From the NCBI GenBank assembly GCA_913060875.1, contig CAJXSL010000002.1, forward strand, positions 372,001 through 436,000: 64,000 bases of DNA, given 5' to 3'. The position numbers and the translations under genes were made by a program. Positions 14,292 through 60,631 of this stretch are shown piece after piece. The notes beneath the pieces were generated by a model. The model did no database searches. It saw only the letters and a list, made by a program, of their open reading frames with translations, and was not told the origin of the DNA. The stretch comes from an uncultured Desulfobacteraceae bacterium (GTDB lineage: Bacteria > Desulfobacterota > Desulfobacteria > Desulfobacterales > UBA5852). Position 1 is the first letter of the stretch. Each line of letters starts with the position of its first letter.

Positions 14292-15093
14292 CCTTTATCT
14301 CCGAAAAGGGAACCTCACTTCTTGTGGAGTCTTGAACAGCCACGTTTTTAGGCAGGAGGTTTTTAGGAAACGACTGAAGCGCTTTACCGTTTACCAAATA
14401 GCCCGTTTTACCTTTTCCTTTGAAGACACCGTCCGGGCCATAGCTCCCCCACTGTTTCCAGTAAAAATGGACATTTTGTATCTGGCACTGACGGTGCAGA
14501 GATTCCACCCAGCTTAATTCCGCTTTGCGTGCCTTGTTACCGCTTTCGCCGCCACCAACGACTAGGCGTATTCCTGTCAAATCGATATCTTCAAGATCTT
14601 CCAGCAAAGGTTCGCAGCAGATATGTTTATTGACCGTTTCAATCGTTTGGAGGTCTTTGAGTCTGGGGAAACCATCTTTTTTATTTTCAACTGTCACACC
14701 TATCCACAAGTTGTCAGGAACAGCTTTATTCTTAAAATAGCCTTTCATTCTTTCGCTGCGTTTGGTGAGCATGTAAAAATTGTGCCAATGAGCCTTCTTA
14801 ACAATATTTAAAATCTGATCGATACTTTCCTCATCGGCGTCTTCATGAAAGGTATCGCTCATGTTGTTGATAAAATAGAGGGTCGGCTTTTTGCGTTTTA
14901 ACGGGACCGCTTTTTCCAACCTGTCCCGATGTACGGTAAATTGGAATTTGTTTTCGTATCCCGCGGTTCCCCATTTGTGGAGTTTTAATGCCAACCCTTC
15001 TGCATAACAGTTTTTGCAGGCAGGCGATATCTTTGTGCAGCCCGTAAAGGGGTTCCAGGACGTGGCCTCTAATTTTTTTCTTACTTTAACCAT
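14254..15093 (-). CDS. DUF5131 (phage Gp37/Gp68-like) radical-SAM-type protein
   Basis: The 279 residues start MVKVRKKLEATSWNPFTGCT. A Cys cluster follows, CTKISPACKNC, whose spacing suggests an iron-sulfur site of radical-SAM type. Later blocks such as LWIGVTVENKK and LVVGGGESG are typical of the Gp37/Gp68 family found in phages and bacterial genomes. The reaction is unknown. The ATG at 15091-15093 has GGAAG upstream and overlaps the preceding PPOX gene by 8 nt, so it is the last gene of a four-gene minus-strand operon. Confidence 0.8.
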   Translation of the reverse strand: MVKVRKKLEATSWNPFTGCTKISPACKNCYAEGLALKLHKWGTAGYENKFQFTVHRDRLEKAVPLKRKKPTLYFINNMSDTFHEDADEESIDQILNIVKKAHWHNFYMLTKRSERMKGYFKNKAVPDNLWIGVTVENKKDGFPRLKDLQTIETVNKHICCEPLLEDLEDIDLTGIRLVVGGGESGNKARKAELSWVESLHRQCQIQNVHFYWKQWGSYGPDGVFKGKGKTGYLVNGKALQSFPKNLLPKNVAVQDSTRSEVPFSEIKVNHQKLFRSSRP

Positions 15094-15679
15094 ATTGGAC
15101 TTCCCATTCCGCAAAATCACCTGTCCTAAACTGGACGTAGTCCCAGTGGCCATACCCCTTGGTGAAATCGAGGACGCAGCCCATTTCCGGCCTGAGGCGA
15201 TAGACCGCGACACCAGAGCCTGGATAAGCAGTATCTTCTTCGTACGCCGCAAACTGTTTCATGTGAGGGAGTCGCTTTAGAAACAGGTGGTAGAGATCAC
15301 CGATTTCCGCCTTGTCGGTTACTTTTTCAGCATGAGCTGCCATGGTGAGCCCCTGCATTTCTCCAAAGTCCTTGAAAGATGGGGTAAGCGTCAGTGAAAC
15401 GCGGGAATCCCGTTCAATATTCTGTACCTTGGACGAGGCTTCATAAGACTGAAAATAAAGCATCAAACCCAGATTCCAGATGTCGACAACGTTGGCTTGC
15501 GGCCAACCATCGGCCCGTACTGTGGCGAGAGATATTTCACTTTGGCGCTCGTACATACCAAGTATCGTTCTGCGCAGCGCATCATTCAAAAACTGCGGGC
15601 TGGATGTTGGATTCCAATTGGCCATGATCTCGGACATTTCGGCCTTGAAATCTCTTTCTCTGAGGTTCTGTTTGGTCAT
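15086..15679 (-). CDS. Pyridoxamine 5'-phosphate oxidase-family flavoprotein (PPOX A)
   Basis: A 197-residue split-barrel protein with the family pattern ISLATVRADGWPQANVV, then VQNIERDSRVSLTL. The family binds FMN or F420 and handles various redox reactions; the substrate here is unknown. The C-terminal VLDFTKGYGHWDYVQF matches its upstream neighbour (ISILDFEKGFGHADFVVV), so the two are tandem duplicates, 21 nt apart. It belongs to the operon led by the C_GCAxxG selenoprotein candidate. Confidence 0.82.
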   Translation of the reverse strand: MTKQNLRERDFKAEMSEIMANWNPTSSPQFLNDALRRTILGMYERQSEISLATVRADGWPQANVVDIWNLGLMLYFQSYEASSKVQNIERDSRVSLTLTPSFKDFGEMQGLTMAAHAEKVTDKAEIGDLYHLFLKRLPHMKQFAAYEEDTAYPGSGVAVYRLRPEMGCVLDFTKGYGHWDYVQFRTGDFAEWEVQYG

Positions 15680-15700
15680 AATTTTTTACCCTATTATGAA

Positions 15701-16273
15701 TTATTTTATTGCTCCATCTTCGACCACGACGAAGTCGGCATGGCCGAACCCTTTCTCGAAATCTAAAATGGAGATCACGGTGGGCCGGATACGATATCGG
15801 ATGGTATGGGGATCGGGGAAGACCGCATCGCCGTCATTATAGGTAATATCTGCCAGCTCCGGCATTTTTTCCAGCAAGAGTCGGTGGAATTCACTGGCCG
15901 TCTCCTCGTCTGTAACCTCTTCGGCATATCCCCCGATTGAGACACCGGAACCATTGGCTACATTCTCATAATACGGCCAGATGGCAAGGGAGACACGGTT
16001 GTCCCTGGCGATATTCTTTGCCTTTGATGTGGTTTTAAAGGTTTCAAAATAAACGTCCTCACCCATATTTACGAAGCCCACGGTGTTGACCTGGGGCCAC
16101 CCGTCTTCACGAAGGGTGGAAATGGCCATATCCTTGCACGATTCGAGGATTTCGATCATCTTGGCCCGCAGTTCTTCGGTCATTTCTGTGGCACCGTTGC
16201 CGTAGATCCTTTTTTTGATCACGTCATCCATTTCATTTTCAGCCTGGGTTAATTTGGCGTTCAGCTCGCTCAT
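15701..16273 (-). CDS. Pyridoxamine 5'-phosphate oxidase-family flavoprotein (PPOX B)
   Basis: This 190-residue paralogue of PPOX A has MAISTLREDGWPQVNTVGF and KNIARDNRVSLAIWPY, the split-barrel flavin-binding pattern. MSELNAK was taken as the start because AGGAAAG lies just before that ATG; an in-frame ATG 14 codons earlier is less likely. It lies 63 nt after the C_GCAxxG gene on the same strand. A redox partnership with that Cys/Sec protein is plausible from context only. Confidence 0.82.
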   Translation of the reverse strand: MSELNAKLTQAENEMDDVIKKRIYGNGATEMTEELRAKMIEILESCKDMAISTLREDGWPQVNTVGFVNMGEDVYFETFKTTSKAKNIARDNRVSLAIWPYYENVANGSGVSIGGYAEEVTDEETASEFHRLLLEKMPELADITYNDGDAVFPDPHTIRYRIRPTVISILDFEKGFGHADFVVVEDGAIK

Positions 16274-16336
16274 GATGCTTTCCTTTTCATTCTCAGGATA
16301 ATTTTTGTTCAGCACAGCTTTCTGTCTGATGCGTAT

Positions 16337-22038: not shown

Positions 22039-23247
22039 TTAGCGCAGTCCCGCATCACAATCTCCATCAAAGACCAGAAGCGCCCTAGCGCGGGCTTCTT
22101 CCAGGACAGTCTTCAAGGGTACCTTTTGATCGACGGCAGCGCGCTTGCATTCTTCATATTCCGGCATCACATTGACCAGCTCATTGTTTTGGGTTGCGGT
22201 TTTGCAAGAGATCTCGCCGAAGCGCGTTTTTACTCTCATGAAATCGCGCTCCAAGGTAAATCTGTTTTCCAGCCGCCAGCGCAGACCGATGGTGGTGGTT
22301 TCACGAAAAAGCAATTCGGCGAGGGATGTCACCCGCTCGGGCCTGCAGAGAATGGTAACCTTCGTTCCTCTTCGGTTTTTCTTCATCTGTACCGTTGTAC
22401 AAAAAATGTCCAGAGCTCCCATTTGAAGCACTCTTTCGATGAGATAGTCATAAATCTGAGGATTCATATCATCGATGGTCGCCTCGATGGCGGCCGTTTG
22501 CTCTACCGCAAACGTATTACCGGGTGGGGGGGGCTCACCAATAAAAACCCGCATCATGTTGGTAATGGGTCGATCGGCCGTCCCCGCACCATTGCCAATA
22601 TGATCGACCGTCATAGGCGGTAGAGGTCCGAAATCATGTGCCATGGCGGTTAAAATTGCGGCACCGGTTGGGGTTAGCAGTTCTCCCTGGACACCGGTGG
22701 CATAAACCGGTTTGCCCCGGACAAGTTCGGCCGTTACCGGGGCTGGCACCGGCAAAGTGACATGGGCGCATTCCACAGTGCCAGTGCCCACATTCAGTGG
22801 TGAACAGGTAATGGTACCGACACCCAACGTATGGAGGCCGATGACACTGCCAACCACATCGATGACGGCATTCATTGCATCTGTTTCATGGAAGTGAATT
22901 CTTTCCGGGGACGTATTGTGAACCTTGGCCTTGGCTTCGGCCAAGCGCATGAATATCCGGATGCTGTCTTTTTTTATGGCCGCTGCCAGGGTACTTTTTT
23001 CAATTATCGATAGGATTTCTGACAGCTGGTGATGATGGTGCTGGTGGCTCAGCGCCACATGCACTATAGCCTGGCTGCAACTGATCCCGTTTTTGACCCT
23101 AGCGGTTTTGGTAACATCGTAATGCGACAGCCTCAGTTTGCCCAATTCCTGCTTTAAATGCTTCAAAGACAGGCCGGCATCCAATAAAGCCCCTAAAATC
23201 ATGTCGCCGCTGGCCCCTGCAAAACAATCAAAATAGGCAATTTTCAT
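22039..23247 (-). CDS. larC: Full-length nickel-pincer cofactor nickel-insertion protein LarC
   Basis: A 402-residue LarC, the CTP-dependent cyclometallase that inserts nickel into the pincer nucleotide used by lactate racemase-type enzymes. The N-terminal domain opens MKIAYFDCFAGASGDM and has a His-rich HQHHHH. The C-terminal domain carries ATIDDMNPQIYDYLIERV and QMKKNRRGTKVTILCRPE. Both domains are in one frame, unlike the split pair at 42637-46285. It is the last gene of the run nudix, larE, phosphatase, larC and is followed by the small RNA candidate. Confidence 0.92.
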   Translation of the reverse strand: MKIAYFDCFAGASGDMILGALLDAGLSLKHLKQELGKLRLSHYDVTKTARVKNGISCSQAIVHVALSHQHHHHQLSEILSIIEKSTLAAAIKKDSIRIFMRLAEAKAKVHNTSPERIHFHETDAMNAVIDVVGSVIGLHTLGVGTITCSPLNVGTGTVECAHVTLPVPAPVTAELVRGKPVYATGVQGELLTPTGAAILTAMAHDFGPLPPMTVDHIGNGAGTADRPITNMMRVFIGEPPPPGNTFAVEQTAAIEATIDDMNPQIYDYLIERVLQMGALDIFCTTVQMKKNRRGTKVTILCRPERVTSLAELLFRETTTIGLRWRLENRFTLERDFMRVKTRFGEISCKTATQNNELVNVMPEYEECKRAAVDQKVPLKTVLEEARARALLVFDGDCDAGLR

Positions 23248-24135: not shown

Positions 24136-24942
24136 TCAATCGTCCAAAATTAAACGATTGAGGCTCCCCCGAATGTATCCTTGCAGATCGACAGTCACAT
24201 AATCGAAGCCAATGGATTTAAAATAAGTTGTCAGCGGATTGCGCACCTCGGCGGACGTCAAAATGCTGATTTCCTCAGGATCCACTTCCAACCGGGCAGT
24301 CGGACCGTGATGCCGCACGCGGATGTCTCCCATAAGGTTCAATCCGCGCAAATAGCGTTCGCCCGCTTCAACCTGTTTCAGCTTTTCAGCAGTAATCGTT
24401 TGGTGGTAGGCAATGCGTGAAGCCAGACAGGCCAGGGCCGGCTTATCCCATGTCGGCAGGCCGAACGACCGCGATAACTGACGAATTTCATCCTTGTTAA
24501 GGCCCACTTCACACAGGGGGCTGATGATGCCCTGTTCCCTGTTCGCCTGCATCCCGGGTCGATAGTCCCCGAGGTCGTCATGGTTGGCGCCATCCACCAC
24601 CGTTTCGAACCCCCTGTCCCGGGCCCATTCCCGGATCAGGCGGAAACGCGCATTTTTGCAATGATAGCAACGGTTTTCGGGGTTTGCCACAAACAATGGA
24701 TTGGCAAGCTCGTCACCGGTAATTTTAAGATGTTCGACCCCAATGGACTGGGCCAGGCGGACCGACTCCTCCTGTTCATTGCGCGGGAATAATTCGGATA
24801 CGACGGTTACCGCCAGAAGGTTATCTCCCAGCACCTCCCTGGCGAGTTTCAGCAGCAGGGTACTGTCCACACCGCCGGAAAAGCACACGACCATCTTCTT
24901 CAAATCGGTTATTCGCGCTCTGAGCGCCTTCAATTTTTGCAT
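24136..24942 (-). CDS. larE: ATP-dependent sulfur transferase LarE
   Basis: This enzyme adenylates and sulfurates the pyridinium carboxylates of the nickel-pincer precursor. The PP-loop is VVCFSGGVDSTLL (residues 18-30). Three cysteines, C92 and C95 in RCYHCK and C172 in LACLASR, match the three-Cys LarE type, which has been proposed to use an iron-sulfur cluster rather than sacrificing its own Cys. Length 268 is normal. It follows the NUDIX gene by 66 nt. The identification is firm; which sulfur route it uses is inferred from the cysteines. Confidence 0.92.
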   Translation of the reverse strand: MQKLKALRARITDLKKMVVCFSGGVDSTLLLKLAREVLGDNLLAVTVVSELFPRNEQEESVRLAQSIGVEHLKITGDELANPLFVANPENRCYHCKNARFRLIREWARDRGFETVVDGANHDDLGDYRPGMQANREQGIISPLCEVGLNKDEIRQLSRSFGLPTWDKPALACLASRIAYHQTITAEKLKQVEAGERYLRGLNLMGDIRVRHHGPTARLEVDPEEISILTSAEVRNPLTTYFKSIGFDYVTVDLQGYIRGSLNRLILDD

Positions 24943-40627: not shown

Positions 40628-41808
40628 GGTTCACGTCCCTCCAGTTTATCGCCGGCATCCATTCGAACGGCATCCGCCGCCGTCTGGAGTCGGTGCAAAC
40701 AACTTTTTCGGCTGTCTCCCCATGCGAAAACAGAACAAATCGGCGCCCCCGCCGCGACCCGGTCACCGGGAAAGGGGATGTCACGCCGCTGGCGGTCAAT
40801 CCATCCATCCGTCTGCTGGATCGTCAGGTTCCTTCGGGCAAAAACAATTCCTTTGGCAGAATAGGCCTTGGGACGATGAAGGGTGGGCGATACGGTCGGT
40901 AGGACACCGTCCGCACCCGCGATATGGAGAGAAAAGATATTAATGTTGCAGGCCTGCTCCAGCAGTTCCATAGCCGCCGTGTAGCGTGGATTGACTTCTA
41001 AAAAATAGACGGGCTTTTCAGCCGACATTCGATCCACCATGAAATCAATGCCGTTAACACCGCGCAGGCCAAATCGCTTTACAAAAGAAGAAACCATTGT
41101 TTCAAGATATCGCCGCAGGGGGCCGCCATCATGCGCATCCATCGAAACCAGGTTACCGCACCAGCGGTAGGGGGCATCGCAAAAATGGGGCCGCCCGATC
41201 AACTGCTCCGTAACCCCCAGGATGCGACTTTTCTTTCCGTCCGCCACGAAAAGGATCGAGGCCGGCTGCCCGTCCACCGCTTCCTGAAGAATATGGCCTT
41301 CCTGAAGGGACTTCCCTTGCCACGGGCGGATACCATGGCCGCCACCGCTATGCTCGGATTTCACCAGCCATTTGGTATCACCGCCGGCGAGGTTTTCCTC
41401 TCCCGGGAGGAGCGTCCTCGGAGTCCGTATACGGTTCTCGGCACAAAACCGGCGCAGAATCCCCCAACTACGGACCGCCTGGAGGCTTTGCGGTGAATTG
41501 CCCAGCACGTTGCCGTTTCGATCGAAGGCCGCGACCACCTCGGGATAATTTTCCAGATTCGAGGTATAAACAACCGACTGATAATCGATCTTACGGCTGG
41601 CGAGCAATAGATTGGCCGGGCTGAAATCGAGCCCCCAGTCACGTTTCAGAGAATAACCGGGGGCTCCCCCGGGCTTATCCCGGTCGCCAAAATAATCCAG
41701 AGCCACCACACGATGATTGCCGGCCACAGCAGAATCCGCCAGAGCCCGCGTGCTGATGCCGATAAGCAGTGTTCGCCTATTGGCCGATCTCTTTTTTGGC
41801 CGTTGCAA
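40621..41808 (-). CDS. ATP-grasp protein of the C1 island
   Basis: About 395 residues. TLLIGISTRALADSAVAGNH begins the N-terminal domain. KWLVKSEHSGGGHGIRPW carries the ATP loop, and NGIDFMVDR with VYFLEVNPRYTAAMELLEQ gives the metal-binding acidic residues. ATP-grasp proteins of this type accompany mtdB and fhc genes in methylotrophs and are presumed to make an amide or anhydride bond in H4MPT or methanofuran synthesis. The start is taken as TTG at 41806-41808 with GAGGAA six bases upstream, inside mtdB (32-nt overlap). The substrate is unknown. Confidence 0.8.
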   Translation of the reverse strand: MQRPKKRSANRRTLLIGISTRALADSAVAGNHRVVALDYFGDRDKPGGAPGYSLKRDWGLDFSPANLLLASRKIDYQSVVYTSNLENYPEVVAAFDRNGNVLGNSPQSLQAVRSWGILRRFCAENRIRTPRTLLPGEENLAGGDTKWLVKSEHSGGGHGIRPWQGKSLQEGHILQEAVDGQPASILFVADGKKSRILGVTEQLIGRPHFCDAPYRWCGNLVSMDAHDGGPLRRYLETMVSSFVKRFGLRGVNGIDFMVDRMSAEKPVYFLEVNPRYTAAMELLEQACNINIFSLHIAGADGVLPTVSPTLHRPKAYSAKGIVFARRNLTIQQTDGWIDRQRRDIPFPGDRVAAGAPICSVFAWGDSRKSCLHRLQTAADAVRMDAGDKLEGREPC

Positions 41809-42640
41809 AAATTTCCTCGGCTTCCAGCGCAAGATCGTTGCGCTCGAAGAGCCGCGCCACGCAGGCACGGTGAATTTTCATCTTCAAACCGCCGATGCCG
41901 AGCGCGCCGAAAATGATCTTGCCGTGCTTTTCCTTGCCATTCCAATTGGGTTTTATGCCCTCAATCCCGGTAGGCGGCACCGCATTGACATCGGCCAGCA
42001 CCTTAAGGCTGGCATGCTCTGTCCAGACGGCTTGAGGCACCAACAACACACCGGCAGCCCCTGCGCAAAGCACGCCGTAGGCATCTTCCAGAATGGCGGC
42101 ATTGGCATCCGCATCCGGGGCCGCCATCGGAGTGACTTCCTTATCAAACCGTTTTTTAATGGAAGCACAGGCCGCTTCCGCCCTGTCCAGACGGCGGGAG
42201 GTCAGGCATACCTGGGCGCCCTCCTGCGCCAGCATGGCCGCCGCACGAAGTCCCACCGGACCGGTACCGGACAGAACCGCAATTTTCTTCCCGGTCACAT
42301 CGCCCACCGAAAGGATCTTGGCCACCGCGGCGGCAGCGGTCGTATTGCAGCCGTTGGAATCCAGCATCACCGATACGCTGACCGGACCGAAAAATGATTT
42401 TTTGGCCTTCTTAAACATGGCCTCGCCCACGGCGACATCCGATCCGCCGACAAAGACCGCAGAATTTTTCAAGTCTTCTCCACCACGGGTAAACATGGCG
42501 CCATAAACCAGATTCTGTACGTCGTCCGGTTGAATGCCCCCATATTGCAGAATCCGGTCCACGCCGGCATCATAGGCTGTCACTGCATCAAACACGCTGG
42601 CAAATTTATCACTGTCCAACTGCACCAGTATCTTTTTCAT
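41777..42640 (-). CDS. mtdB: NAD(P)-dependent methylene-H4MPT dehydrogenase MtdB
   Basis: MtdB oxidises methylene-H4MPT to methenyl-H4MPT with NAD(P). The 287 residues begin KKILVQLDSDKFASVFDAVT, as in MtdA/MtdB. The Rossmann loop is KKIAVLSGTGPVGLRAA, and DSNGCNTTAAAAV and ADVNAVPPTGIEGI are conserved. A short C-terminal IFGALGIGGLKMKIHRACV also fits MtdB. Its start shares ATGA with the end of the larC2-like gene. Using NAD(P) instead of F420 is the usual bacterial version. Confidence 0.94.
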   Translation of the reverse strand: MKKILVQLDSDKFASVFDAVTAYDAGVDRILQYGGIQPDDVQNLVYGAMFTRGGEDLKNSAVFVGGSDVAVGEAMFKKAKKSFFGPVSVSVMLDSNGCNTTAAAAVAKILSVGDVTGKKIAVLSGTGPVGLRAAAMLAQEGAQVCLTSRRLDRAEAACASIKKRFDKEVTPMAAPDADANAAILEDAYGVLCAGAAGVLLVPQAVWTEHASLKVLADVNAVPPTGIEGIKPNWNGKEKHGKIIFGALGIGGLKMKIHRACVARLFERNDLALEAEEIFATAKKEIGQ

Positions 42641-43164
42641 GACTTCTGATCTCCCCTGTAGATGGCCTCGATGTCCCCGAGCGATCGGTCGGCGCAGGCC
42701 AGAGCAGCCTGCTCCGCCAATCCCTTCAATGCGGTAAACGCCAGGGTCTCATGGAGGCCGTCTTCCCTGATGAATTTCAGGGAAGACTGAATATCTTCAT
42801 AGTCTGCTTTCGCGGAAACCGTCTCTCCGTTGGCATTGATGACCTTTTTCACCCGAACGTCCAGCCGTCGATCGATGTCGGAACCCGCAACGCGCAGCCG
42901 AACCATTTCAATCCTATACTGGAAGGCAATATGGCGCGTTTCGAGGATCCGCATCCCGATGGTGCCCAGTTCCCGGGCCAAATAGGCGCCCAGAACGTCG
43001 ATCAAATCCTCCCGGGTGTCGACGTAAAACAGGTATTCCGGGCGCCCCTTCTTGGTGATGGCCGGCACGACGTGAACACTTTCCGCACCGATGGCCATCA
43101 ATTCGTCAATCACATGGGCAATCGTCTCGCCCGACACATCATCGACATTGACCATCAACAGCAT
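42637..43164 (-). CDS. LarC2-like protein: stand-alone C-terminal half of LarC
   Basis: The 175 residues correspond to the C-terminal LarC domain. LLMVNVDDVSGETIAHVIDE aligns with ATIDDMNPQIYDYLIE of the full LarC in this window, TKKGRPEYLFYVDTREDLI with MKKNRRGTKVTILCRPE, and LGTIGMRILETRHIAF with TTIGLRWRLENRFTL. In Lactiplantibacillus, LarC is made from larC1 and larC2 by frameshifting; here the halves are separate genes 2.3 kb apart. It overlaps mtdB by 4 nt, tying nickel-cofactor genes to the C1 operon. Activity of the split pair is unproven. Confidence 0.75.
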   Translation of the reverse strand: MLLMVNVDDVSGETIAHVIDELMAIGAESVHVVPAITKKGRPEYLFYVDTREDLIDVLGAYLARELGTIGMRILETRHIAFQYRIEMVRLRVAGSDIDRRLDVRVKKVINANGETVSAKADYEDIQSSLKFIREDGLHETLAFTALKGLAEQAALACADRSLGDIEAIYRGDQKS

Positions 43165-43268
43165 ATTCGACCATCACTCTTGGCTGTGGTGGCGGGCCGG
43201 CCACAAGGCCGTGCCCCCCACCGGTTTATCTATCATCTTGCCAGTTTCAACCGTGCAATCGCACGGGC

Positions 43269-45044
43269 TTACAGATCCTTGAGCAAGCGTTGGGCCAGTT
43301 GGGCCGTCTCAAGCGCTTTTTCTTTGGCGCCGGGGATGGCACGGGTCAATTCCGCGCCCTTGGTGGCGTACTTGGCCGCATCCTTCACGGACAGTTTTCC
43401 CATCGCCGCCGCCATGGTCGCCGGCACGATGATGTTGATGGCGCAGGCGCCCACATACATGAGTTCCTGGACAACTGCCGAAGCCACTGTGATGGGCAGG
43501 GAAAGCTCCGCCTTTTTATTCAGGACCGCGTCGGGAACGACTTTATGGGCCAGCCCCTCGAACACGACTTTCTCTCCGTCCACCGTCACCTCGGCATCTA
43601 TGTCGGCATCAAAGCCCCAGAACTTCTTGGCGAACTTATGATTCCGCCGGGCGCCACCGGTGAGTTTGGTAAACTTGATGGTAATGGTTTTGCCAAAGAA
43701 ACCGCTGAGGATATTGCCGGCGTCTTTTTCGACCCGGGCCTGGCGTTCCAAGTCGAGGGCCAGGCAGATGTCCTTCAGGTCTTTGCCGGCGTTGAGATCG
43801 TCATAGGTGCGTTGGGCTCTCTGGACAATGGCATTGGTCCGAACACCCTCGGTGGCCTTGATGATGGTTTCGGACACCGGGCCGCGCCGCAGTTGCTCGG
43901 ACTTCCGCGCCACGGTATTGGTGGCAAACGCCGCCAATTCGCCGTCCATCCATTGGGTCGCCTTCATTTCCCTGATGACGTCCGCAGAAGCCTCGATGTC
44001 GCCGCCGTTTTCCAGCAGCAGGTTCATGGCCACCACGCCATCGGCACACAAATGGGCCAACGGAGGGCTGACGGGGCCTGCGCCAAAACCGGCACCGATC
44101 ATGGGCCCCTCGGCAAACGCGGCCAGGATTTCATTGAAGGTCATCATGCCGACCACCGTGGGCGCGCCGACATCTTTCAGAATCATGCCCAGGTCCCCGA
44201 CCAGTTGTGCGGTGTCATACTCTTTGTTCGTACCGCGCAAATGGAGTTTTTCAGGCAGACCCGCCGCTTCGGCGGCTCCCTTACCGGCCAGATAACCGGT
44301 CCCCTGCATAAAAAACTCGCCGTGTTCTTCACCGATCATGCCGTCGGGGTTGAGAACCTCCAACGCCGCGGCCGCGCCCAGTGTGGCACACATGATGGGG
44401 CTGGGCAGAATGCCGGCGCCGCGATAGGCCTTAATCATTCCTTCCACCGCGACTTTGGCCCCTTTCATGCACATATCGACATACACCATATCTTCACCAA
44501 GAACGCTGTGTCCGTAGATCGCACCACCGGCCACAAAGGCCGGTACATCCATGCCGTCCACCCGCACTACCTCGCCCTTGGCCATGGCATCATAAAGGGC
44601 CTGAACTGCAGCGAATCCGGAAATCTTGAATGTGGTTTTACTTGTCGGCACAGCCTGCACGCCGGCCCGCTCGGCACCGGCTTTCATACGCGCCATGGCA
44701 CCCAGTTTACGGTTGCCCGCAGGCACACCCGCGCGTGACCCCGTCCCGGCGATATTAAGCAGCACGGCCGCAATCAGAGCCGCATTGGCCGGTGCCGCAC
44801 CGCCCTCCATCGCCGCCTTGATACCGCAGTCCATCACATAATCCAATTCCAGATCCACCATGTTTTCGTCATTGATGCTCGTACGACGACCCCGCAACAT
44901 TTCAACGGCCATGGCGTTTTCCGCCGCCATGGCGGCCAGGTTCAACATGCCATGGCCCTTGGTCAGTGCTTCGATTTTATCCGCCGTGGAATACTCCACG
45001 TTGGACGTGACGGCCGTCAAAGTCGCAATCATCTCTTTTTGCAT
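43269..45044 (-). CDS. Unrecognised 591-residue protein between larC1 and larC2
   Basis: I do not recognise this family. The protein is cytoplasmic-looking, with no signal peptide, and very rich in Ala, Gly and Met. Notable runs are [60 protein letters not shown] and [16 protein letters not shown]. His at 31, 179, 241 and 268 and several Cys could bind metal, but no known motif is clear. GGGAGG stands seven bases before the ATG. It is the first gene of the main C1 operon, with a promoter-like sequence and a 32-nt repeat in its 224-400-nt leader. Its place between larC1 and larC2 makes it a candidate nickel-pincer enzyme or C1 enzyme. Confidence 0.85.
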
Positions 45045-45297
45045 TTTTCACCCTCCCCTGTTTGCAGGTTTTTTATAAAACCCGTGTTGATTCATACGGC
45101 ACAACCGCGTGCCGAAATCGAGCCGTTCCCATTCACGTCGTTTCCGGGGGCATTACCTCTCCACCCGTTGCCTCCTGCATTCAACCAAACGGTTGCCCAT
45201 GCCAGATGAACCGAATGAAGCGGCCGGTTTTCTGAAATGGCGCCCATTGGCTGCGTGCCGGAATGAGCTCTGCAGGTTGTAAACATACCTCTAAATT

Positions 45298-45329
45298 ATC
45301 CGGGATTGAGTTCTTATGGTGTACCGCCG
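45298..45329 (-). repeat. 32-nt leader element, copy A
   Basis: The block starting ATCCGGGATTGAGTTCTTAT on the plus strand recurs with one difference (A or G at base 25) at 47296-47327. Both lie in the 5' leader of a minus-strand transcript: this one 253 nt before the 591-residue gene, the other 141 nt before larB. It may be a shared operator or RNA control element for the lar/C1 genes. The remaining spacer 45045-45487 holds a promoter candidate and nothing else clear. Confidence 0.65.
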
Positions 45330-45449
45330 GAATCATGCCGATTTTAATGATCCACCTCGCTGTCAGCCGCAGGGATACCCTTGGGGGAAGAGTCGCAATA
45401 AGTCAGCGATGCGGTGGCTGTTTATCGGCGCCTTAAAATATTATGAGAC

Positions 45450-45479
45450 ATATATCATATCAAAATTTTCCTCTGTCAA
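45450..45479 (-). promoter_or_regulatory. Sigma70-type promoter candidate for the main C1 operon
   Basis: On the minus strand a perfect TTGACA (45479-45474) is followed after 17 bases by GATATA, overlapping TATGAT- and TATATG-like words in an AT-rich stretch. It starts right after the larC1 stop and points at the 591-residue gene, giving a leader of about 400 nt that contains copy A of the 32-nt repeat. Confidence 0.5.
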
Positions 45480-45487
45480 GTATTTTT

Positions 45488-46285
45488 TCAACTTTCCGAA
45501 TGCCCCTCCGGCACTGAGTGGTGGTGATGGTGGTGGTGGTGGCCTGTCGTCGATTCCCTATCCAAGGCCTCGCCCACCGTGACCCTGAGCAGGTTGGGTA
45601 TTTTCGTTTCCAGAGAACCGGCGCCGTAGCCAATCGCCTCAATCCGCATGGGCGGCATAGGGCCGAAGCCGACGGCCTGCGTGGTCAGAATGGCCGCCCC
45701 GGTTGGCGTCAGCAACTCGCCCGTTCCCTCGGTGGCGTAGGCCGGCGCGCCACTGATCAGTTCAGCCGTCGCCGGTGCCGGAACTGGTAAAAGGCCGTGG
45801 GCACACTGGACCATGCCGCTGCCGACATTGAACGCCGAACAATAGATGTTTTCAACGCCCAACAGGGATAGTCCCGAGACCGCCCCAACCACATCGATGA
45901 TGGTGTCCATCGCGCCCACTTCGTGAAAATGAATATCTTCGATGGTGGTGCGATGCACTTTGGCTTCGGCCTCGGCCAGACGGGTAAAAATGGCGATACT
46001 CTTTGTCTTGATCGCATCGTCGATTTCGCTGCCTTCGATGATTTCCTTGATATCACTGAGCTTACGGTGATAATGGCCGTGATGTTCCTGATCGACGGCA
46101 ATCAGCGCTTTGCTGCCGCCGATGGCGCCTTTGATGACCGGCTCAACGTCAAGTTGATAATGGCTGAGATTGAGCTTGGACAGTTCATTCTTGAGCGCCT
46201 CCAGGTCCAACCCACTGTCCAGCAGCGCCCCAATGATCATGTCACCACTGGCGCCTGAAAAACAATCAAAGTAGGCAATCTTCAT
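45488..46285 (-). CDS. larC1: LarC1: N-terminal half of LarC with a native His8 tail
   Basis: The 265 residues cover the N-terminal LarC domain: MKIAYFDCFSGASGDMIIGA, IHFHEVGAMDTIIDVVGAV and ELLTPTGAAILTTQ. They stop where the full LarC in this window continues into its C-terminal domain. The end is Gly, eight His in a row, then SVPEGHSES. No C-terminal domain follows in any frame downstream; the missing half matches the separate gene at 42637-43164. LarC1 would bind the pincer nucleotide, and the His tail may hold or feed nickel. It starts 104 nt after larB. Confidence 0.88.
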   Translation of the reverse strand: MKIAYFDCFSGASGDMIIGALLDSGLDLEALKNELSKLNLSHYQLDVEPVIKGAIGGSKALIAVDQEHHGHYHRKLSDIKEIIEGSEIDDAIKTKSIAIFTRLAEAEAKVHRTTIEDIHFHEVGAMDTIIDVVGAVSGLSLLGVENIYCSAFNVGSGMVQCAHGLLPVPAPATAELISGAPAYATEGTGELLTPTGAAILTTQAVGFGPMPPMRIEAIGYGAGSLETKIPNLLRVTVGEALDRESTTGHHHHHHHHSVPEGHSES

Positions 46286-46389: not shown

Positions 46390-47154
46390 TCATGTCCTGA
46401 GGCCCTTGACGGCGAGCTTATTGATCAGGCTGGCCTGACATCCCGCACCGAAGCCATTGTCGATATTGACGACGGATACACCCGAGGCACAGCTATTGAG
46501 CATGCTCAGCAGCGCCGCAATACCGCCAAAACTGGCCCCATAACCTATACTGGTCGGGACACCGATGACTGGCACAGCAACCAGCCCCCCAACAACACTT
46601 GCCAAAGCCCCCTCCATACCGGCAATGACGATCACCACATTGGCTTTGTATATTTCTTCACAAGAAGCCAAGAGTCGATGCAGGCCGGCAACACCGACAT
46701 CGTAATGGCGAGACACCTCGTTCCCCATGGTTTCCGCTGTAATGCACGCCTCTTCAGCCACCGGGATATCGGAAGTCCCGGCGCACACCACGGCAATTTG
46801 GCCGACCTTTTCGATCGGCCGGGGATAGAAGAGAACAATCTGGGCCGCTTCATGATACCGGCAGTCCTCAATCTCCAGCTGGATCCTGGCAAACATGTCC
46901 GGGCTGACCCTTGTTCCCATGATATTGGTATGGTTCTGCGACATTGTTTTAACAATGCCCACCACTTGGCTGACCGTCTTTCCGGCGCAGTAGATCACCT
47001 CCGGGAAGCCGGTCCTGAGGCATCGGTGATTGTCGATCTTGGCGAACTCGAGGTTGTCGAAGGGCAGGGTTTTCAGCTTTGCGAGGACCGTATCCAGATC
47101 CGTATGACCGTCTTTGAATTGCCCCAAAAGCTGTTTCAGATTTTCTTTGTCCAT
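46390..47154 (-). CDS. larB: Pyridinium-3,5-biscarboxylic acid mononucleotide synthase LarB
   Basis: LarB carboxylates and hydrolyses nicotinic acid adenine dinucleotide, the first step to the nickel-pincer cofactor. The 254 residues have an N-terminal helical part and a PurE-like C-terminal domain: IAVVCAGTSDIPVAEEA, YDVGVAGLHRLL and VVIAGMEGALASVVGGL. GAGGAA lies just before the ATG. It is followed by larC1 on the same strand and diverges from the dmrB-like gene. Assignment is firm. Confidence 0.93.
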   Translation of the reverse strand: MDKENLKQLLGQFKDGHTDLDTVLAKLKTLPFDNLEFAKIDNHRCLRTGFPEVIYCAGKTVSQVVGIVKTMSQNHTNIMGTRVSPDMFARIQLEIEDCRYHEAAQIVLFYPRPIEKVGQIAVVCAGTSDIPVAEEACITAETMGNEVSRHYDVGVAGLHRLLASCEEIYKANVVIVIAGMEGALASVVGGLVAVPVIGVPTSIGYGASFGGIAALLSMLNSCASGVSVVNIDNGFGAGCQASLINKLAVKGLRT

Positions 47155-59484: not shown

Positions 59485-59873
59485 ATGGGAACCATTGAAA
59501 CGACATACGACCTCACCAAGGACCTGACCGTCGTCAAAGCAACTGGCAAGATGGCTGAGGACGATTTCAGGGAATGGAGGACAAGTTACTACGCTGGTGA
59601 GCCTACCAAACTAATCCTGTGGGATATCAGTGAAACAGACCTTTCAGAGATCCCAAGTAAAAGCGTTGCGACTCATGCCAGTCTCATAAAAAAAACCTTT
59701 CTGACAGACGACGAGAAGGCGGCAAAACTGCTGTAGTGGTAGGTGACAACGTCCTTGCGAAGGGGTTAGCCCGAATGCGAGAAACTTATGGTGAAATTGA
59801 GGATACGCCCATATCGATTAAAACATTTACCAATATCGACGAAGCCAAACAATGGCTTGATTTTACGGGATGA
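59485..59873 (+). pseudogene. Frameshifted copy of a small STAS/SpoIIAA-like protein
   Basis: The first 83 codons (MGTIETTYDLTKDLTVVKAT...FLTDDEKAAKLL) end at a TAG. From about 59718 another frame continues GGKTAVVVGDNVLAKGLARM, then RETYGEIEDTPISIKTFTNI and a TGA at 59871-59873. Joined, they match the intact 124-residue paralogue at 60257-60631 from end to end, including GGKTAFVADKD. One missing base near GACGAGAAGGCGGC explains it. It may be a pseudogene, a sequencing error or, less likely, a programmed shift. It overlaps the next gene by 4 nt. Confidence 0.75.
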
Positions 59874-60250
59874 TGGCATTGGATATCAAGATCGACGACG
59901 ACAACAAAATCATCCATCGGACCGTGGTTGGTGGACTCTACACGGAACGCTCACTCAAACTGGTCCGTGAGTTGGCATGGTCTGTCAGTACCCACAAGAG
60001 TTACAATATCCTTATGGACATGAGAGAAACGGAAACCAAACCCGAGATGCTCGACCTGATGCAAATCGCATCGACATGTGCGACCCTCAGGTCCAATTTC
60101 GATAACAAAATCGCTTTCCTCATACCGAATTCGGAAGAGCGTGTCCGGTTCGCCCAACTTTTCAAATCTTGCATGGAAGCCCAAGGCTTCCGGTTCAAGC
60201 AGTTTTTCGACTATGATGCCGCTATTGAATGGCTGACGGTGGAGGAATAA
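59870..60250 (+). CDS. Small STAS/SpoIIAA-like protein
   Basis: The 126 residues (ALDIKIDDDNKIIHRTVVGG...YNILMDMRETETKPEMLDLM...GFRFKQFFDYDAAIEWLTVE) have an alternating strand-helix pattern. The LMDMRET strand end and final AAIEWL helix resemble STAS-like single-domain proteins. It has no catalytic motif. It starts with ATGATG overlapping the upstream frameshifted gene and is followed by its distant paralogue 6 nt later, so all three are cotranscribed behind the PAS sensor. A partner-switching role is a guess. Confidence 0.65.
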   Translation: MMALDIKIDDDNKIIHRTVVGGLYTERSLKLVRELAWSVSTHKSYNILMDMRETETKPEMLDLMQIASTCATLRSNFDNKIAFLIPNSEERVRFAQLFKSCMEAQGFRFKQFFDYDAAIEWLTVEE

Positions 60251-60256
60251 CCTGCA

Positions 60257-60631
60257 ATGGGAACCATCGAAACAACGTTCTACCTTGATAAAAACCTGAC
60301 CGTTTTCAAAGCACAGGGAAAGCTGATTCGGAATGATTTCAAGGAATGGCGAACAAATTATTATGCCGGAACAGTCACGTCACTGCATCTCTGGGATCTC
60401 TATGATGCGGATCTATCCGAGATTACAGCTGATCTCATTCAGTTGGACACCCAACGGACCAAACAGATCGCAGGGATGCGAGCGGGGGGCAAGACAGCGT
60501 TCGTAGCAGATAAGGATTTGGCGTTCGGCCTGAGTAGGATGAGAGAAATCTACTCCGAGATAGAAGAGCTGCAAATCGAATACAGGACGTTTCACAACAT
60601 CGCCGAAGCCAAAGAATGGCTCGGCGTTTGA
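60257..60631 (+). CDS. Small STAS/SpoIIAA-like protein, intact paralogue
   Basis: The 124 residues (MGTIETTFYLDKNLTVFKAQ...DFKEWRTNYYAGTVTSLHLW...FHNIAEAKEWLGV) are the intact version of the frameshifted gene at 59485-59873. It shares the start, the EWRT-YYAG centre and the AK-WL ending. GGAGG lies 11 bases before the ATG. It has no known domain beyond a likely STAS-type fold. It ends the sensor and small-protein run. Confidence 0.65.
   Translation: MGTIETTFYLDKNLTVFKAQGKLIRNDFKEWRTNYYAGTVTSLHLWDLYDADLSEITADLIQLDTQRTKQIAGMRAGGKTAFVADKDLAFGLSRMREIYSEIEELQIEYRTFHNIAEAKEWLGV

Follow-up and report, generated by a model that had tools for sequence, protein, structure and literature searches.

This analysis concerns a stretch of 64,000 nucleotides (the window; contig CAJXSL010000002.1, positions 372,001 to 436,000) from an uncultured Desulfobacteraceae bacterium, and in particular a gene of 591 codons, here called U591, that lies among genes of the nickel-pincer nucleotide pathway on the minus strand, in the order larB, larC1, U591, larC2L and an mtdB-like gene. 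We observed that U591 is almost always accompanied by LarC2L, a stand-alone protein resembling the C-terminal domain (C-domain) of LarC, suggesting that the two may belong to a nickel-cofactor cassette with a client other than LarA. The genes of this cassette, together with a one-piece LarC and a LarE encoded elsewhere in the window, are as follows.

46390..47154, minus strand: LarB (NF033503, E 9.9e-90, 299.8 bits against a cut-off of 175)
45488..46285, minus strand: LarC1, 265 residues, N-terminal domain (N-domain) only, with a tail of eight histidines (TIGR00299, E 1.3e-65, 220 bits against a cut-off of 90)
43269..45044, minus strand: U591, probable client enzyme, family unassigned (no Pfam or NCBIfam family)
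42637..43164, minus strand: LarC2L, 175 residues, stand-alone LarC C-domain-like protein, partner of U591 (NF052512, E 1e-21, 77.2 bits against a cut-off of 50)
41777..42640, minus strand: MtdB-like methylene-tetrahydromethanopterin dehydrogenase (Pfam Mpt_N, E 6.7e-33)
22039..23247, minus strand: one-piece LarC of the usual type (TIGR00299 and NF052512 both above cut-off; its C-domain groups with those of one-piece LarCs in the tree)
24136..24942, minus strand: LarE (TIGR00268, E 5.1e-95), one of two LarEs in the genome

The profile matches establish the family memberships of LarB, LarC1, LarC2L and LarE, and the coordinates, strands and identities hold for larC1, the stand-alone C-domain gene, the mtdB-like gene, the one-piece larC and larE, which a sequence-only reading of this DNA had named. 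That reading had LarC1 stopping after the N-domain with its histidine tail, and this is what was found, the match covering positions 1-235 of the 375 of Pfam Ni_insertion (PF01969) and the chain ending in TTGHHHHHHHHSVPEGHSES; its proposed profile search of 42637-43164 likewise returned the C-domain family, over Ni_insertion positions 247-362. In lactobacilli the two larC halves are joined by a programmed frameshift; it was rightly argued that no such joining can happen here, with about 2.3 kb and a 591-codon gene between the larC1 stop and the larC2L start, and the pieces are not the adjacent halves that characterize a Lactobacillus-type larC. Read-through of larC1 to a C-domain, which had been named as a possible refutation, was also checked, and the open reading frame (ORF) ends after the N-domain, the sequence as far as U591 giving no match to a C-domain. 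A six-frame search of the whole genome showed no remnant of a C-domain in this interval, and the three frames of 45045-45500 on that strand are each broken by several stops; a decayed one-piece LarC with a C-domain remnant behind LarC1 was therefore rejected.

At the other end of the cassette, larC2L and the mtdB-like gene share 4 overlapping bases, and the window LarE is encoded about 18 kb away. The six-frame search, reading through stops, detected LarC in only four places in the source genome; one of these, on contig C7, is an additional one-piece LarC that is accompanied by a LarB. Two LarBs score above cut-off in this genome, that of the cassette and that of C7, and the second LarE lies on contig C5. 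Two LarC sets with separate roles had been proposed for the window; both sets are present, and separate roles for them are likely.

With reference to the distribution of U591, a scan of genome contigs disclosed 33 loci, which with four plasmid loci and the window make up the 38 examined here; many of the alphaproteobacterial loci are near-copies, so that the counts are not of independent events. The scan used two short peptide patterns, and relatives lacking both would therefore have been missed. By their titles, the scan loci belong to Dethiosulfatarculus, Synergistota, Bacillota and Alphaproteobacteria, as well as to metagenome-assembled genomes (MAGs) of Proteobacteria, Balneolaceae, Nitrospirales and one unnamed bacterium, and the named isolates include Rhizobium, Sinorhizobium, Paracoccus, Eubacterium, Sporomusa and Anaerosphaera. 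Among plasmids, five records of Rhizobium or Ciceribacter were retrieved, and in two annotated plasmid loci the cassette consists of U591, LarC2L, LarC, LarE, LarB and a nickel transporter; one of the two has its larE divided over two ORFs. U591 is rare in the phylum of the window, being present in 2 of 297 genomes, the window's own (G000) and G077. It was also considered as a viral protein and rejected as such, as no relative was seen in a scan of viral contigs, no PHROGs match at E 0.01 and no BFVD match at E <= 0.001. In one MAG (L047, 9956-11744), U591 is spread over two overlapping ORFs, by assembly error or as a broken gene.

LarC2L is encoded on the strand of U591 in 35 of the 38 loci, within 200 bp in 34 of these and at 1.3 kb in the exception, L020. 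The sequence-only reading had treated the 591-codon gene as merely intervening; it is instead the constant partner of the small protein. The three loci without LarC2L (L040, L043 and L045) are contigs of 3168-3530 bases in which U591 reaches the contig end, and the two genes overlap by one base in 16 alphaproteobacterial loci and by four bases in one. Within 10 kb of U591, LarB was found in 25 loci, LarE in 18 and LarA in 2, several contigs being shorter than that distance. A one-piece LarC is present in 17 of the 38 loci, all of them alphaproteobacterial, and an N-only LarC1 in 12, of which 11 also harbor LarC2L. A search for the gene order of the window in other genomes, as had been suggested, recovered larB-larC1-U591-larC2L in a Synergistaceae MAG (L044) and in Synergistota L016, without mtdB directly behind, and U591-larC2L-mtdB in Dethiosulfatarculus L015, without larB or larC1 within 10 kb.

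The predicted model of LarC2L (predicted local distance difference test score, pLDDT, 93.9; predicted template modelling score, pTM, 0.72) matches LarC2 of 6bwq_B at Z 13.4, with a root-mean-square deviation of 2.7 A over 138 residues, and MK0293 (3c19) at Z 12.2, with 4.7 A over 158. Among the columns invariant in 32 canonical C-domains, D13, G32, K44, K45, R47, G76 and K115 are kept in LarC2L, and E9, D14, D35, M43, R78, R90, C134 and A138 are mostly replaced, the window copy keeping D14 and R78. LarC2L thus lacks the full set of invariant residues of a canonical LarC2, and displays conserved H and D columns of its own. Most rows do retain glutamate at two other columns, the window copy having aspartate at the second of them. 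PII and CutA chains also match residues 1-82 at Z about 9, and such a PII/CutA-like N-terminal half, taken with the near-constant pairing and the gene overlap, would fit a structural subunit or regulator of U591 that is no part of an insertase. We regard this as improbable, because the LarC2 match is both longer and stronger, and because 11 of the 12 loci with an N-only LarC1 contain LarC2L, as though it stood in for the absent domain.

LarC2L forms a group of its own. In the C-domain tree of 66 rows (26 stand-alone proteins, 32 one-piece C-domains of the window's phylum and 8 alphaproteobacterial ones), from which, as from the N-domain tree, nine near-duplicate loci were left out, the 26 stand-alone proteins make up one side of a branch (100/99); the tree is unrooted, and a program warning points to long branches meeting at this place. 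At the next branch (99/94), the LarC of contig C7 is on the same side as LarC2L. In the phylum of the window, a search of 297 genomes with a LarC2L profile (A6, E <= 1e-12) gave matches in 104, and the only one above 100 bits was that of the window (179.6 bits, frame of 178 residues). One other match lies in a short frame (G095, 54 bits, 156 residues, of the f54 type described below); the remaining frames have at least 308 residues and are therefore one-piece LarCs by length.

As an observation in its own right, C7 76000-88000 (L087) carries a second larB-larC pair whose LarC takes an intermediate position in the tree, with LarC2L on one side and the remaining C-domains on the other. Its C-domain is the one-piece C-domain most like LarC2L among the 297 genomes, at 96 bits to A6, the next reaching 74.

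LarC1 is, on the other hand, kin of the one-piece LarCs. In the N-domain tree (52 rows) four one-piece LarCs of this phylum, one of them from the window itself, form a 100/100 group with the window LarC1, which shares 67% identity with L072. The 12 N-only proteins end at most 70 residues past the N-domain, and three of them (the window, L016 and L044) have a histidine-rich tail. On the best tree the N-only LarC1s need three changes, two of which are forced by well-supported branches. A single origin of all of them was rejected by the approximately unbiased test (p 7.4e-7, 12 rows); with L040, L024 and the own-genome L002 of the other side dropped, a single N-only clade was still rejected (p 0.006, 10 rows), although long branches may inflate these results. 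Our reading of these sequences is that loss of the C-domain from ordinary LarCs probably happened on more than one occasion in the presence of LarC2L, and the window LarC1 appears to have lost its own.

The earlier description of a split LarC is therefore upheld in part: the small protein is a homologue of the LarC C-domain, but the trees, together with the 17 loci that have a complete LarC, speak against two halves of one LarC. As these 17 alphaproteobacterial loci pair LarC2L with a complete LarC, LarC2L is no lost half, and a simple split of one LarC is ruled out as the whole story by both trees and by that pairing. A related explanation would have LarC1 and LarC2L form the insertase for an ordinary LarA, with U591 as a nickel store, chaperone or passenger. 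LarC2L does have the LarC2 fold and part of the conserved core, the source genome encodes a LarA, and the halves of canonical LarC are separated in all five f54 genomes searched, but LarC2L has its own tree group and stands beside a complete LarC in those 17 loci. Moreover, U591 has LarC2L in 35 of the 38 loci and an N-only LarC1 in just 12, and many genomes with U591 have no LarA, so that we consider this explanation quite unlikely.

The search for LarA (PF09861) covered 19 genomes, one for each of 19 scan loci out of the 33, with the plasmid hosts and most MAGs outside it, and no match was found in 11 of them (nine alphaproteobacteria and two Anaerosphaera). The LarC matches in these 11 are those of the cassette itself, apart from fragments of the C-domain in G305 and G313 and one match of 20 bits in G309. 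Five of the alphaproteobacterial genomes without LarA were also searched for LarB and LarE, and there the sole copies above cut-off lie within the U591 cassette. Both LarB and LarE were above cut-off in 14 of the 16 U591 genomes searched. In 12 of 17 alphaproteobacterial loci, larB is followed by a gene for a nickel transporter of the HoxN/HupN/NixA type (scoring above 500 bits against the L012 protein); scores of 40-118 bits were obtained in four more, and L023 gave none. Pfam NicO and the family models were run on two loci, and the gene is annotated as such in L011 and L012. Regulators of the HxlR type were noticed in eight Bacillota loci (at least 66 bits), about 9 kb off in L036, and weakly in L012.

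As regards U591 itself, no Pfam or NCBIfam family was matched at E 0.001 (the best Pfam match among 27 family members has E 0.054), and nothing in the PDB was matched by sequence better than E 0.69. At E <= 1 the 27 members together match 11 Pfam families, and Lar_N (PF09861) is not one of them. K136, K140 and H179 are present in all 27 rows. The AlphaFold2 model built from the 27 rows (pLDDT 88.4, pTM 0.90) is predominantly helical and has one small sheet (454-495), and a whole-chain Foldseek search of the PDB gave no match at E <= 0.001, which does not by itself prove a new fold. In a second structural comparison no row reached Z 5, the best being Z 4.8 over 69 residues with a chloride channel. 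Four B chains of the nickel enzyme methyl-coenzyme M reductase scored Z 3.8-4.1 over 115-125 residues, a range common for helical proteins, and no tie to that enzyme is claimed. No LarA chain is among the structure matches listed for U591, which excludes nothing.

The cassette of the window lies inside a tetrahydromethanopterin (H4MPT) cluster, so that U591 probably serves one-carbon metabolism here and in some of the other bacteria. Around U591 are the MtdB-like gene adjoining LarC2L, a protein of the beta-RFAP-synthase family, and FTR and MCH at 10-12 kb. The MtdB-like gene occupies the same place behind LarC2L in Dethiosulfatarculus L015, L016 and L044 harbor MCH and relatives of the window's RFAP-synthase protein, and L044 also has an MptN-like protein below its cut-off. 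Elsewhere, formate-tetrahydrofolate ligase was detected in L017, L018, L019 and L046, FolD and cyclodeaminase in L017-L019, a B12-binding protein in L020 and L043, and MttB in L020.

Putting these observations together, we hold it slightly better than an even chance that the locus is a nickel-cofactor cassette with a LarA-independent client, U591, which LarC2L assists in metallation or delivery, and that it has a link to one-carbon metabolism. LarB and LarE would make the pyridinium dithiocarboxylate precursor; LarC1, whose histidine-rich tail may hold nickel, would work in trans with LarC2L to insert the nickel; and the nickel-pincer nucleotide, or a close relative, would be handed to U591 as a new enzyme family using the cofactor. 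Binding of the cofactor by U591, joint action of LarC1 and LarC2L, and delivery by LarC2L are all inferred, as is any reaction of U591. In LarA, a lysine tethers the cofactor and a histidine coordinates it, according to the available text of PMC11796402; the same portion of that paper reports that about 15% of the genomes surveyed have larB, larC and larE without larA and may load the cofactor into proteins other than LarA, and it names no client for them. For the adduct on LarA itself, PMC11796402 gives a mass of 450.2 Da. A stronger form of this proposal, in which U591 is the first non-LarA family of nickel-pincer nucleotide enzymes, with a fold new to the PDB, passing one-carbon units to tetrahydropterin carriers and served by LarC2L as a private metallochaperone, is put forward tentatively, as less likely than not. 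To our knowledge, the LarA family is the only one in which the nickel-pincer nucleotide is known.

Several observations weigh against the cassette proposal. What supports it is gene neighbourhood and not biochemistry, and conserved lysine and histidine residues such as K136, K140 and H179 are common in enzymes generally. A LarA match is present in 8 of the 19 U591 genomes (in G304 weakly, partial, 27 bits) and in the window's own genome, which has a LarA on contig C13 and two weak LarA-like matches elsewhere. No LarC lies within 10 kb in 9 of the 38 loci. In MAG G077, which has a U591 fragment, a search of the whole assembly at E <= 1e-12 gave no LarC2L and just a one-piece LarC C-domain of 55 bits, which also tells against constant pairing; the contig breaks inside U591, and a neighbouring LarC2L may therefore have been lost with it (this fragment and that of L043 are taken to be the same 3.5-kb contig). 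In five related Rhizobium loci (L011 18607-19413, L028, L029, L030 and L038) larE is in two ORFs of one frame, separated by one TAA in the one genome searched (G306), larE being whole in L012 and L014. One-carbon genes occur at 10 of 21 loci outside the alphaproteobacterial set, a raw count with no baseline, and several of these bacteria are acetogens, in which such genes are common.

The two Anaerosphaera genomes add a further point against the proposal, as they encode U591, LarC1 and LarC2L with neither LarB nor LarE above cut-off and with no LarA. In these two and in UBA6113, genes for DUF1893 (TM1506) and for the S-component of an energy-coupling factor (ECF) transporter lie directly behind LarC1 (L017 13198-14201, L018 13135-14146, and the same place in L019), a feature that phmmer found in no other U591 locus. 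Both facts would be expected if the LarC proteins had been repurposed, U591, LarC1 and LarC2L forming a cytidine triphosphate-dependent system that metallates or modifies a ligand made by neither LarB nor LarE, for use in one-carbon metabolism. We think this unlikely, given that LarB and LarE are above cut-off in the 14 other genomes and that LarB stands in 25 of the 38 loci; the S-component could instead, at a guess, import a finished precursor. Under the preferred proposal of a nickel-cofactor cassette, U591 is a concrete, expressible client candidate with matched biosynthetic genes in named isolates, and the cassette would go some way towards accounting for the existence of several forms of LarC.

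Two further features were noticed in the window. Three consecutive short ORFs of 83-126 residues lie at 59485-60631, two of them similar at the start by eye, and a neighbouring pair of ORFs at 15086-16315 has stretches similar by eye.

In the partial literature collection consulted, nothing was found for nickel-pincer with Rhizobium or for Anaerosphaera with creatine (a guessed substrate), no paper had MK0293 as its subject by title, and tetrahydromethanopterin with larB and nickel-pincer with tetrahydrofolate led only to PMC8305020, a Haloferax annotation.

Compared with known systems, the best PDB match of LarC2L is MK0293 of Methanopyrus kandleri (3c19; profile E 1.6e-15, Foldseek 3.8e-8), which was crystallised as a whole protein and has the LarC2 fold; unlike LarC2L, it is archaeal, and titled uncharacterized, and none of the 33 U591 scan loci is titled archaeal. 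LarC2 of Lactiplantibacillus (L.) plantarum (6bwo, 6bwq) shares the fold (Z 13.2-13.4) and the D, KK.R, G and K columns, whereas LarC2L has about 25% identity to it, differs from it at canonical E, D and R columns, shows an H and a D not found there, and is encoded alone. In the phylum of the window, where PF01969 is matched in 252 of 297 genomes, the f54 genomes (G059, G095, G123, G151 and G265; L086, L089-L098) resemble the window in encoding LarC as N and C pieces in separate, distant genes, on different contigs in all five searched; their C piece, however, scores 141-161 bits to PF01969 against 78 for LarC2L, and no U591 match was seen in f54, which represents a separate split of an ordinary LarC. 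Finally, the LarB-LarC-LarE/LarA pathway of L. plantarum, in which larC spans lp_0106/lp_0107 according to the available part of PMC8305020, has the same LarB, LarE and LarC families; in the window, by contrast, U591 lies between two distinct genes for the N and C pieces, the latter piece belongs to another group, and the putative client at the locus is U591 and not LarA.

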